Source: a virus. Taken from it: DNA of 43,771 nucleotides. The stretch lies in IMG/VR virus record IMGVR_UViG_3300050132_000105, positions 1 through 43,771 of that record; one strand, written 5' to 3'. Positions 3,530 through 43,771 of the stretch are shown here, in pieces; position 1 is the stretch's first letter; every line of letters begins with the position of its first letter. The position numbers and the translations under genes are program-made. The notes beneath the pieces are model-generated. The model saw only the letters and a list, made by a program, of their open reading frames with translations, did no database searches and had not been told where the DNA came from.

Positions 3530-6211
3530 ATGAGCACAATCCACGATTTCCTGCAAGCCATCCAAGAAGCCGGCATAGGCACGCCCACGGAGATAATACC
3601 CGATGGCAAGCTTCACCGCTTCGATTGCCCCGGCGACAAACCGAAGACCAAGAAGGGCTGGTACATCCTATTCGACGGCGAACCGCTGGCGGGCAGCTTT
3701 GGCCGCTGGCAAGGGCTTGACAACGGCTCTATCACCTGGTGCGGCAAAGTAACCCGCACCCTCAGCCCTGAGGAAAAACGCGCCTACGCCAAACGCATGG
3801 ACGAGGCCCGCCAACAACGCGAGGCCGAGTCTGCCCGGGTGACGGCCGAGTGCCGCGCCTGGTGTGCCCGCATATGGGAGTCTGCGCCTGAGGCACCCGC
3901 GACGCACCCGTACCTGTCCCGCAAGCGGATCCCCGCCAACGGCCTGCGCCTGCTACGGACCAGCGACGATGACGGCGCGCTGATGGTCCCGGTGAAAGAC
4001 TCGGCAAGCGTCATCCAAGGCATGCAGTTCATCTCTCCTGACGGCTCCAAGAAATTCAAGACCGGCACGGCCAAGGCCGGCAACTGCTACCGTATCGGCA
4101 CCGTCAAAGACGACACGATTATTATAGCGGAAGGATTCGCAACCGCAAGCAGTGTCCACCAGGCCACCGGCCATTGCGTCCTGGTGTCGTTCGATGCCGG
4201 CAACCTGCAGCCGGTCGCGGAGCTGATCCGGTCGAAACGCCCCGGCATGCGCATCATCCTCGCCGCGGACAACGACGCATGGGTGAAGATCACCGACGAC
4301 CAGGGCGCCGTCGAGTACAAGAAGGTTCCCTGCAACGTCGCCGGCAAGCGCAGGGTGAATACCGGCGTTGTGAAGGCCACCGAGGCCATGACGGCGTGCT
4401 CCGGCGTGCTGGCGGTCCCGGCCTTCCGCGATGTCTCCGCGCACCCCACCGACTGGAACGACTTGCATCTGCAAGAGGGGATCGAGGCGGTCGCCGCTCA
4501 GTTCGACGCCGTGATGAATCCGCAGGAGTCTCAATACGAAGAGCACCACGAAGCAATCGAGCCGATGCAGTATGAGCAGCCGGAAGAACCGGATCAGGAG
4601 CGGCAGCCGTTTCAGTGCCTCGGCTACGAGCACAACACCTACTACTACCTGCCGCGGGGAAGCAACCAGGTCATACCGTTGCGCGCCGAGCAGCACGGCA
4701 AGAGCCACCTGATCACCCTTGCGCCGATCAACTACTGGGAGGCAGGGTATCCGGCCAAGTCCGGAGCCAACTACGACGCGGCCGCCAATGCCTTGATTCG
4801 CTTTCAGGAACGCAAGGGCGTCTATGACCCTTCCCGTCTGCGCGGTCGAGGCGCATGGGAGGACGGCGGCCGCTCAGTGCTGCATCTCGGGAACTTGATG
4901 TACGTGAACGGGTCGCAACACCATCCGCATGAGATCAGGTCGCATTACATCTACGAGGCGGCCCCCTCGATGGAGTACGACACGCCATGCAAGGCGCTTG
5001 GCACGCCCGAGGCGAACCGGTTCGTTACGCTCTGCGATCAGTTGATGTGGGAGCGCCCCATCTACGGCCGCCTGCTGGCCGGGTGGTGCATCATCGCTCC
5101 GATCTGCGGGGCCTTGAAGTGGCGCCCGCACGTTCACCTGACTGGAGGGGCCGGCGTGGGAAAATCTTGGACCGTTAGCAATATCGTTGCGCTCTCAGTC
5201 GGACCGGCCGCTCTCCAGGTGGTGGGTTCGACAACGGCGGCCGCGATCCGGCAGACCCTTGGCGCCGACGCCCGGCCGGTGATTCACGACGAGTTCGAAG
5301 CCGAGGAGCAGGTAGGAATGAAGCGCATCCAGGAAGAACTAGAGCTTGCCCGCGCCTGTTCCTCAGATTCCGAAGCTCTCACCCTGAAGGGTGGCGCCGA
5401 TGGTCGCGCCAAGGTGTACCGCAGCCGGGCCGCGTTCTGTTTCTCCAGCATCGGAGTGAACATGAGTCAGCAAGCCGATGTTTCCCGGGTGACAGTGCTC
5501 TCGTTGCGGAAGGACGAGAAACAATCAGAGCAGGAACGCCAGGTGCATTTTGACAAGCTGGTTGCCGCCTGGTCGGAAACCATGACGGAAGAATACTGCT
5601 GCGCCCTCCGCGCCCGCACCGTCCACATGATACCGACGATCCGAAAGAACGCCGAGACATTCGCCCGGGCCGCCGCGGTTGATGTTGGGACGCAGCGCAC
5701 CGGCGACCAGTTGGGTGCCATGCTGGCCGGGGTCTACTCGCTATTCAGCATGGGCGAGGTAACGCTGGAGAAGGCCAAGGAGTGGATCAAAAACCAGGAT
5801 TGGAGCGAGTACGCCGTCAAAGAGGACCAGATGGATGAGCAGCGCTGTCTTGCGAAGATCATGCAAACGGTCATCCGCGCGCAGGGCGAAAAAGGAATCT
5901 GCTACGACCAGAGCATCAGCGAGCTGATCAGCATCGCGCAGCACGGGCTACGTTCACATGAGGGGATCTCGGAACTCAGCGCCGACGCCGTGCTGAAGCG
6001 CCACGGTATCAAGGTGTCGCCGTACGATGGCACGTTCGCGATATCGAACACGCACATTGCCATTGAGAAATGCCTGGAAAAAACGCCGTGGTCGAAGAAC
6101 TGGCCGCAGTTGTTGGCCCGGCTGCCGGGGTCGGAGAAGACGGGGAGTATCCGGTTCTCGGCGGGGATCGTTACGAAGGCGGTGCAGTTGCCGCTGGATA
6201 TGTTGGGATAA
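3530..6211 (+). CDS. Primase-helicase: Toprim-like N-terminus, linker domain, AAA+ helicase
   Basis: An 893-residue replication protein. The N-terminal region (about 1-130) ends near HPYLSRKRI, followed by a Toprim-like domain with IIIAEGFATA (E201) and AADND (D247, D249). A linker domain (F361 to about P434) contains GYEHNTYYYLP, LITLAPINYWE and then RGRGAW. The C-terminal AAA+ helicase has Walker A GGAGVGKS (539-546, K545), Walker B VIHDEFE (D587, E588) and an Arg-finger-like DVSRVTV (R653), as in DUF927/D5-type helicases. It likely primes and unwinds the phage origin. The linker has a paralog in the small RHH gene at 42393. ATG at 3530 follows GAGGG at 3517-3521. Confidence 0.9.
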   Translation: MSTIHDFLQAIQEAGIGTPTEIIPDGKLHRFDCPGDKPKTKKGWYILFDGEPLAGSFGRWQGLDNGSITWCGKVTRTLSPEEKRAYAKRMDEARQQREAESARVTAECRAWCARIWESAPEAPATHPYLSRKRIPANGLRLLRTSDDDGALMVPVKDSASVIQGMQFISPDGSKKFKTGTAKAGNCYRIGTVKDDTIIIAEGFATASSVHQATGHCVLVSFDAGNLQPVAELIRSKRPGMRIILAADNDAWVKITDDQGAVEYKKVPCNVAGKRRVNTGVVKATEAMTACSGVLAVPAFRDVSAHPTDWNDLHLQEGIEAVAAQFDAVMNPQESQYEEHHEAIEPMQYEQPEEPDQERQPFQCLGYEHNTYYYLPRGSNQVIPLRAEQHGKSHLITLAPINYWEAGYPAKSGANYDAAANALIRFQERKGVYDPSRLRGRGAWEDGGRSVLHLGNLMYVNGSQHHPHEIRSHYIYEAAPSMEYDTPCKALGTPEANRFVTLCDQLMWERPIYGRLLAGWCIIAPICGALKWRPHVHLTGGAGVGKSWTVSNIVALSVGPAALQVVGSTTAAAIRQTLGADARPVIHDEFEAEEQVGMKRIQEELELARACSSDSEALTLKGGADGRAKVYRSRAAFCFSSIGVNMSQQADVSRVTVLSLRKDEKQSEQERQVHFDKLVAAWSETMTEEYCCALRARTVHMIPTIRKNAETFARAAAVDVGTQRTGDQLGAMLAGVYSLFSMGEVTLEKAKEWIKNQDWSEYAVKEDQMDEQRCLAKIMQTVIRAQGEKGICYDQSISELISIAQHGLRSHEGISELSADAVLKRHGIKVSPYDGTFAISNTHIAIEKCLEKTPWSKNWPQLLARLPGSEKTGSIRFSAGIVTKAVQLPLDMLG

Positions 6212-7125: not shown

Positions 7126-7306
7126 CGTAGTAGAAACATTTGTCCTTGTCGTCTTCTTTACACTGAGGTCCGCCATGTACGCCGACGATTTCAAAATGTC
7201 GCTGTACATGGCGGACCTTTTCGACCAGGCCGGCAAGGGCGCCCTCTACATTTTCCCCGGCGAAATATGCGATATTGTACCCTTCCTCGAACTCGATGTT
7301 TCTCAT
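7067..7306 (-). CDS. Hypothetical protein at 3' end of late module
   Basis: 79 residues, MRNIEFEEGYNIAYFAGENV..., with its ATG overlapping the ATP-grasp stop as ATGA (7306-7303) and TAGGAGG upstream, so it is translationally coupled to that gene. There are two cysteines (CKEDDKDKC) and a basic Pro-rich end. Its tail overlaps the convergent gene ending at 7125. No family recognised. Confidence 0.6.
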   Translation of the reverse strand: MRNIEFEEGYNIAYFAGENVEGALAGLVEKVRHVQRHFEIVGVHGGPQCKEDDKDKCFYYATQALTLRLRAPAPVKKPR

Positions 7307-40797: not shown

Positions 40798-40826
40798 TGA
40801 ATACTGGGTTTTCCTTGGGAAGTCAA
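40798..40826 (-). promoter_or_regulatory. Possible sigma70-type late promoter
   Basis: Minus strand: TTGACT (40826-40821), 17-nt spacer, TATTCA (40803-40798). The likely start point is within a few bases of ATG 40790. It would drive the leftward late module starting with terS. It matches consensus moderately, and its closeness to the start codon is odd. Confidence 0.45.
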
Positions 40827-41291
40827 GGGGAATCGCGGGCGCTGCAGGTAGCTGAGAATTATTATGTGACGCTAAGTGTCCAGGATCGGACCACCTGTTA
40901 CAAATGATTTCAACCACTTAGGGTGGAAAATATCAGCATGTCACAAAATGTTTACGCTCTAAACTATTGAAATTACTTGATTTTTACCCCCTTACACTAC
41001 TACTACATAACTAGAAATAGAAATAATAATAATAAGGGGGATTTTTATTTATTTCTGCCTGTATATGTGGTCATGATTATAGATGCAATGGTGGAATAAA
41101 AAATATAAGTTCTAGTATCTTCGAACCCCGGATACGCGTCACATCGTCACATTTTGGACCAAAAGAACCCAAGTACCCGATATATCAAGTAACCATGGAA
41201 CTTGAGTTAAGTCACACTAATCATAAAAAGGTAGCTTTCCCATGTAGATGGTGATATAGGTTGGTTCACTTTTGATAAAAGGAGGTATCGC
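40827..41291 (+). promoter_or_regulatory. AT-rich divergent control region, origin or operator candidate
   Basis: About 465 bp without a convincing gene between the divergent late and right-end modules. It is much more AT-rich than the rest of the window, with an AATAATAATAATAA run near 41026-41035 flanked by CCCCCTTA (40987-40994) and TAAGGGGG (41033-41040). GTCACA or its complement occurs five times (40865, 40940, 41138, 41146, 41211), two of them in a tandem 8-mer CGTCACAT (41137-41152). These suggest bound regulators and possibly a replication origin. Confidence 0.5.
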
Positions 41292-41945: not shown

Positions 41946-42311
41946 ATGAAAGCTGAACAAAAATACTATTTGCTATCGCCGCAGAAACAGAAGGGGCCTC
42001 AGCGAAAATACCTTGGTAGCGGAGGCCAATACTACGACGATCCCAACAAGGGCCGTCTGGTCACCAGGTCTGAAGCGGGGAGGGTGGCAACTCTCTGGCA
42101 TGAGCCCTTATATACAGTGAACACGGATCGCACCAAAAAGCCGCCAACCCAGGCGCTTCCCGAAAAACATGACCCAAGAGGAAACTACAATATCAGCTTG
42201 CCTGCCTCGTATACCGATATCGTCAACCGCCTGGTGCGAAAGTTTGGTGCTTCCAAGGAGGACGTATTGAGACAGGCGCTTGAACTGTTGGAAGGGTCGA
42301 TTGCTTTTTAA
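41946..42311 (+). CDS. Ribbon-helix-helix protein with basic N-terminal extension
   Basis: 121 residues. The last 43 (NYNISLPASYTDIVNRLVRK..., EDVLRQALELL) form an RHH (MetJ/Arc/CopG) domain: one beta strand for DNA contact and two helices for dimerisation. The N-terminal 75 residues are polar and aromatic (YYLLSPQKQKGPQRKYLGSG). The RHH part resembles that of the gene at 42393, and both genes share the leader AAAAGGAGCCAC, so they are likely duplicates. Likely a DNA-binding regulator. Confidence 0.7.
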   Translation: MKAEQKYYLLSPQKQKGPQRKYLGSGGQYYDDPNKGRLVTRSEAGRVATLWHEPLYTVNTDRTKKPPTQALPEKHDPRGNYNISLPASYTDIVNRLVRKFGASKEDVLRQALELLEGSIAF

Positions 42312-42332
42312 AATAACCCGTAGAAAAATGTA

Positions 42333-42360
42333 TTGACAATGCATATTTTTTGACTATAAT
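42333..42360 (+). promoter_or_regulatory. Near-consensus sigma70 promoter
   Basis: TTGACA (42333-42338), 16-nt spacer, TATAAT (42355-42360): both hexamers are perfect matches. It lies 32 nt before the ATG of the RHH/primase-domain gene and would give it strong host-dependent early or constitutive expression. A nearby ATGCAT palindrome in the spacer might serve as an operator. Confidence 0.8.
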
Positions 42361-42392
42361 CAGCGCAAATCTAGTACAAAAGGAGCCACAAA

Positions 42393-42851
42393 ATGTCAAC
42401 TCGAAATATCAGCCTGCCGGATCATCACGAAAAATTACTGCAAGAGTTCAAACAGAAATTCGGGATTTCGGCATCAGAAGCAATTCGGAGGGGTTTGGAG
42501 GCGCTTGCTTCAAGTTATCCCGACGCCTCCAGGAATACTGGAGGCGTCGGGATAACTTTGCACCAGGAAAATCCGTTCATCTGTGCAGGTTACTCGGGCG
42601 ACACTTACTACTATATTGTGAAGCGCACTCTTAAGATCATCGCGTTAGATCCAGACGACCACGATAAAGAGCATCTTCTCACCTTAGCACCTATAAGCTA
42701 CTGGGAAACCTGTTTCCCTTGCAGAGCTGGAGTCCACTGGGATAGCGCAATCAGCGCCCTTTTCAGGAAGCAGGAAATGGCCGGTATTTTTAACCCTAAT
42801 GGTGCTGATGCGACGGTGGAAGACTTGAAGAAAGGCCTACATTTCCCTTGA
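42393..42851 (+). CDS. RHH protein fused to a paralog of the primase-helicase linker domain
   Basis: 152 residues. Residues 1-40 form an RHH DNA-binding domain (STRNISLPDHHEKLLQEFKQ, then SEAIRRGLEAL). Residues 62-135 align without gaps to residues 361-434 of the phage primase-helicase (gene at 3530), with 33 identities in 74 by hand count, including GY..xTYYY, LxTLAPIxYWE and the P..xGxxxD block. It lacks the primase RGRGAW segment, Toprim and AAA parts. A perfect 21-bp inverted repeat encodes the junction. AAAGGAG precedes the ATG and a strong promoter lies upstream. A regulator that engages the replication machinery is an attractive idea but unproven. Confidence 0.8.
   Translation: MSTRNISLPDHHEKLLQEFKQKFGISASEAIRRGLEALASSYPDASRNTGGVGITLHQENPFICAGYSGDTYYYIVKRTLKIIALDPDDHDKEHLLTLAPISYWETCFPCRAGVHWDSAISALFRKQEMAGIFNPNGADATVEDLKKGLHFP
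42512..42558 (+). repeat. Perfect 21-bp inverted repeat inside a coding sequence
   Basis: Arms 42512-42532 and 42538-42558 are exact reverse complements around a 5-nt loop (GAATA). The core arm is CCCGACGCCTCCAG. It encodes the linker SYPDASRNTGGVGIT between the RHH and primase-like domains. No T-tract follows. It could be a mobile-palindrome scar, an operator for the RHH dimer, or an mRNA hairpin that limits full-length product. Confidence 0.9.
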
Positions 42852-42876
42852 CAGAGAAGAAGAGGGCTGATATTCT
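42848..42876 (+). promoter_or_regulatory. Possible sigma70-type promoter
   Basis: TTGACA (42848-42853), 17-nt spacer, TATTCT (42871-42876). The -35 box overlaps the stop of the preceding gene. It would drive the small genes starting at 42944. Confidence 0.5.
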
Positions 42877-43635: not shown

Positions 43636-43771
43636 AAGGCGAGACGGTTTTGGATAAAAGGGACGGCTCCGGCTCCGGCGACGGCTCCGGCTCCGGCGAC
43701 GGCTCCGGCTCCGGCGACGGCTCCGGCTCCGGCTCCGGCTCCGGCGACGGCTCCGGCTCCGGCGACGGCTC
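43632..43771 (+). CDS. Gly-Ser-Asp repeat protein, 3'-truncated by window edge
   Basis: GTG at 43632 overlaps the preceding stop (GTGA). The product starts [11 protein letters not shown] and continues as GSGSGD hexapeptide repeats to the end of the window. The last codon is split by the edge; joined to base 1 it would read TCG (Ser) and continue in frame into the leucine-rich-repeat-like protein at 2-703. The flexible acidic/Gly-Ser repeat could be a linker or Ca-binding-like tract. Start codon confidence is moderate. Confidence 0.55.
43665..43771 (+). repeat. 18-bp tandem repeat encoding GSGSGD
   Basis: Units of GGCTCCGGCTCCGGCGAC repeat about six times, with one unit expanded by two extra GGCTCC steps. 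Runs to the window edge, so the full length is unknown. Simple repeats like this change length by slippage in multiples of 6 bp, keeping the frame. Confidence 0.95.

Follow-up and report, generated by a model that had tools for sequence, protein, structure and literature searches.

A perfect 21-bp inverted repeat with a 5-nt loop lies in frame within a 152-aa gene (42393..42851, plus strand) of the viral DNA analyzed here (the whole stretch of 43,771 nt, hereafter the window), at the joint between the two domains of the encoded protein, and a known mutational process is the likeliest cause of it. The left arm, AAGTTATCCCGACGCCTCCAG (42512..42532, plus strand), is separated by the loop GAATA (42533..42537, plus strand) from the right arm, CTGGAGGCGTCGGGATAACTT (42538..42558, plus strand), and the arms pair at 21 of 21 positions (100% complementarity), exactly as a first-pass annotation of this DNA had described for 42512-42558. 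The hairpin is a real and rare feature, far beyond chance, which agrees with the earlier statement that such a palindrome is very unlikely to be accidental: base composition predicts only 1.8e-7 hairpins with 21-bp arms and loops of 3-12 nt in the window, and when the gene was resampled synonymously 2000 times, its longest perfect hairpin measured 4-11 bp. It is the sole long perfect inverted repeat within the window, where the runner-up among perfect hairpins with short loops has 11-bp arms, and no perfect hairpin with arms of at least 12 bp and loops of 3-12 nt was found in six whole or partial phage records totaling 270 kb.

The gene that carries the hairpin is preceded by a consensus sigma-70 promoter, TTGACA-16-TATAAT (42333..42360, plus strand), and by an AGGAG ribosome site. 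Its product can be laid out as an RHH-like region (aa 1-41), a linker encoded by the hairpin (aa 40-56), a primase-linker domain (aa 57-136), and a short tail (aa 137-152). Within the first region, the segment of aa 5-41 (42405..42515, plus strand) shares 38% identity over 37 aa with the C-terminal RHH of the upstream gene (41946..42311, plus strand), whose RHH_1 domain scores 22 bits against the Pfam cut-off of 20.5; the RHH evidence of the fused gene in its own right is weak (Pfam DUF6290, 17 bits against a cut-off of 27). Related RHH segments occur in two neighboring genes: the product of 41946-42311 has its segment at the C-terminus, and the fused gene has its own at the N-terminus, within 42393-42515. 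The primase-linker domain (42561..42800, plus strand) has its paralog in aa 356-435 of the primase that the phage itself encodes (43% identity over 80 aa, E 3e-24), which is the stretch between the Toprim domain and the presumed helicase part, and it also matches phrog_35358 DNA primase (E 1e-10). That full phage primase with its Toprim domain (3530..6211, plus strand), which represents the source family of the C-terminal domain, carries no hairpin, and the fused gene contains the linker domain alone, with neither Toprim nor helicase domain present. The fusion of an RHH part with a primase domain, which had been proposed from the first reading of the DNA, is borne out by these matches, and the gene accordingly appears, as judged from homology, to be a free-standing primase middle domain joined to an RHH DNA-binding segment.

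The claimed position of the palindrome at the domain junction was also confirmed. Homology to RHH runs to aa 41 and homology to the primase linker begins at aa 57, and because the hairpin codes for aa 40-56, it fills a joint that matches neither parent. The reading frame is open through the whole hairpin, where no in-frame stop codon occurs, and omitting the right arm does not close it either. A low-confidence AlphaFold model of the protein (mean pLDDT 48) places helices at aa 8-23 and 27-41 and strands from aa 62, with low confidence at aa 41-59, and agrees in outline with the domain layout.

We tentatively favor an explanation, to which we assign somewhat less than an even chance, in which the second arm is the product of a template switch by fold-back, dating from the fusion or from a later time, and was left behind as a translated linker. 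The nascent DNA strand would have paired with itself across the GAATA turn, copied 21 nt from the other arm, and then returned to its template; translation of the resulting sequence would have given a short linker, probably with little structure, and the hairpin would be a mutational by-product rather than a regulatory element. The switch, its timing, and the neutrality of the hairpin are inferred from the product. The reasons for favoring it are the perfection of the 21-bp stem and the 5-nt turn, because a single event gives such a structure while stepwise mutation is very unlikely to, and the reading fits well with the perfect arms, the tight turn, the lack of a family of copies, and the position in a non-homologous linker. 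It is also compatible with the arithmetic of the gene, as a 21-nt inverted copy preserves the reading frame. We also considered whether the 47-nt hairpin could have entered, as a unit, a gene that had been fused before, but this seems unlikely, since 47 is not divisible by 3 and the site shows no convincing target-site duplication; an inverted copy of 21 nt that stays in frame agrees better with the gene. Among the three suggestions of the first-pass annotation, namely a scar of the fusion, an operator, and an mRNA hairpin, the scar fits best, albeit as a scar of fold-back copying. A third, 8-nt copy of part of the right arm, TGGAGGCG (42496..42503, plus strand), is complementary to part of the left arm and may have seeded the switch, while its presence exceeds chance only weakly (about 0.04 by our estimate).

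One-step formation of such structures has precedents. In Escherichia coli and phage T4, quasipalindromes become perfect palindromes by template switching (PMC7202029), and these mutations, in E. coli thyA and lacZ and in T4 rIIB, likewise place a perfect inverted repeat with a short loop inside a gene by a single event, whereas the present event is read from its product only. Single template-switch events also make long perfect stems with a small loop in RNA hairpins (PMC8794818); those came to light when the ancestral sequences of microRNA and rRNA genes were reconstructed, while the phage hairpin lies in a translated gene. The coding palindromes of nematomorph mitochondria (PMC6649704) resemble it in that they are perfect inverted repeats with both arms translated, but there are many of them and the amino acids that they encode are conserved, in contrast with the single palindrome in a non-conserved linker found here.

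The age of the hairpin is constrained by the comparison of the arms with the domains that they join. Both domains are now highly diverged from their paralogs in the genome, whereas the arms are perfect, which implies that the hairpin is younger than the fusion, has been renewed by further template switching, or is under selection. If the fusion is old and the hairpin dates from it, something must have kept the hairpin intact, given the divergence of the domains. Moreover, a strong 21-bp hairpin is perhaps costly and unstable, so that its survival may mean selection. It is mainly the contrast between perfect arms and diverged domains that leads us to keep a function among the possibilities.

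Relatives of the region were sought in several ways. Protein searches of viral contigs with the fused gene, the upstream RHH gene, the terminase, and the primase gave no close relative of the region; the terminase is distantly similar to that of EBPR podovirus 1. The C-terminal domain was present in 16 phage and 7 plasmid records, none with a single match covering 80% of the query. In the four annotated records that were inspected, it lies within proteins of about 840-930 aa, and a fifth inspected record, an Azospirillum plasmid, carries no annotation. A two-row profile search placed the domain in full primases in five viral contigs, with stop-to-stop frames of 859-921 aa, and a search of 369 genomes from a single class and 195 from a single phylum, both chosen as guesses, gave one match in a frame of 964 aa. 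All 10 of the domain copies whose reading frame was read thus belong to large proteins, full primases elsewhere carry the linker domain without the hairpin, and no second RHH-linker fusion was found in the viral contigs, the phage and plasmid records, or the searched genomes. Nor did the viral contigs and the other searches yield any relative of the joint, whether with the pre-event sequence or with an imperfect or missing second arm, which is a point against the template-switch reading.

A repeated palindromic element is not indicated by the same searches. The first-pass annotation had proposed looking for the palindrome in related phages, and the exact 21-nt arm had no match in the viral contigs; in the window, no second copy of the arm was found with up to 3 mismatches, and the arm is therefore not a member of a repeat family. 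A pattern built on the 10-bp core of the hairpin matched at least 118 stretches in genomes and 7 in viral contigs, but these were rejected as relatives because their flanking stems agree over at most 4 bases, and they look like chance or unrelated hairpins. With no multiple copies and no flanking stem common to the core matches, the hairpin does not resemble a REP, RPE, or MITE. Palindromic elements of Rickettsia are known to be inserted in frame in genes. Those elements and the REP and MITE repeats are palindromic DNA as well, but they form repeated families, whereas the phage arm occurs once in the window, is absent from the viral contigs, and lacks a clear target-site duplication.

Another possibility, which we regard as unlikely, is that the hairpin was inherited from a gene border. 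The RHH gene would once have ended near aa 41, and an intergenic hairpin that terminated transcription or stabilized mRNA would have become the linker through an in-frame deletion reaching to the primase domain. The RHH of the upstream gene ends at the position that matches the start of the hairpin in the fused gene, and this paralog stops 3 residues past that point, as would be expected of such an ancestor. In about 1 Mb of bacterial loci, 13 of 21 hairpins with arms of at least 17 bp lie outside the longest ORFs, although these loci were partly picked by the hairpin pattern itself, which biases the hairpin rate in them upwards. The six phage records, intergenic regions included, contain no comparable hairpin, however, and the joint retains no remnant of an in-frame stop codon. 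An intrinsic terminator is unlikely because the G+C-rich stem is followed by the tail ATAACTTTGCACC and a terminator scan made no call on either strand; a U-tract is likewise absent on either strand. An inherited intergenic hairpin that had no U-tract is possible.

The hairpin might instead act in the mRNA. A 21-bp stem in an early transcript, cut by RNase III or slowing ribosomes, would set the ratio of RHH-only to fused protein, an explanation that we consider rather unlikely. The 47-nt hairpin is predicted to fold into a very stable RNA structure (-41.9 kcal/mol, z = -12) situated about 145 nt into the transcript from the consensus promoter, and the predicted 21-bp stem has the approximately two turns of double-stranded RNA expected of an RNase III site. 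GGAGG in the right arm, with CCTCC opposite, precedes an in-frame TTG at aa 56 by 13 nt, but this spacing is long for a Shine-Dalgarno sequence and TTG is a weak start, so the arrangement is poor. The first-pass idea that the hairpin yields an RHH-only product drew no support from the sequence, as there is neither a U-tract nor a stop codon in the hairpin to end such a product, and an Rfam search gave nothing above chance and hence no known RNA family. The predicted stability of the fold by itself makes a role in RNA processing or translation possible. A more elaborate version, to which we give a low probability, is that the hairpin is a selected RNA switch between an RHH-only repressor and the fusion, where the fusion would tether or titrate the phage primase at RHH-bound DNA, so that repression and replication would be coupled through a single early gene.

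Palindromes are also common at repressor sites, and the genes of three putative DNA-binding proteins adjoin one another in this region. The earlier suggestion of an RHH operator inside its own gene, bound by the RHH part of the fusion or, in a wider version, by a neighboring RHH or HTH protein, is in our judgment very improbable. No second arm-like site exists at the 42333-42360 promoter or elsewhere; the best match to the arm is 11/21 in 42300-42511, the same as in shuffled sequences, and 14/21 in the window. In addition, the palindrome sits about 120 bp inside the gene, and a perfect 21+21 palindrome far exceeds the known RHH half-sites, which are much shorter.

An artefact of assembly or amplification, joining two fragments by fold-back, has to be weighed too, as the locus is represented by one metagenome-derived record for which no second record was found, and DNA amplification does give fold-back chimeras. 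On the other hand, the promoter, the ribosome site, the RHH part, and the primase domain are linked up with a single open frame, and the joint shows no step in G+C content, which is even on its two sides. An artefact of this kind is improbable in our view.

If the hairpin is indeed the scar of a template switch, the gene would be a clear case, in a phage, in which fold-back during replication gave a new two-domain protein its linker; a functional hairpin would represent a kind of control element that is uncommon within coding regions. No matter how the hairpin arose, the fusion differs from phage Toprim primase-helicases (phrog_35358) in that its C-terminal 80 aa correspond to the middle domain between their Toprim and helicase parts, here standing alone behind an RHH segment. 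This arrangement suggests that the middle domain of a phage primase can work alone, perhaps as an interaction module.

Several other features were observed around the gene and elsewhere in the window. A second good promoter-like site, TTGACA-17-TATTCT (42848-42876), lies over the stop codon of the fused gene, and farther downstream, the protein encoded at 43183-43635 matches Pfam DUF6948 (PF22253, E 1.6e-21). A stretch of low G+C content, down to 34%, at 40826-41291 separates the minus-strand terminase genes from the plus-strand regulatory genes and is likely a promoter or origin region. At 7166-7218, where plus- and minus-strand genes converge, a 26-nt inverted repeat (85% complementary, 1-nt gap) overlaps a small minus-strand ORF and may act as a two-way terminator. 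The record ends in tandem repeats, with a 54-bp unit at 1-199 and a 6/18-bp GGCTCC-type unit at 43662-43771, which probably explain why the assembly stopped there; the plus-strand early genes may run past the end of the record and into its start, provided that the genome is circular.
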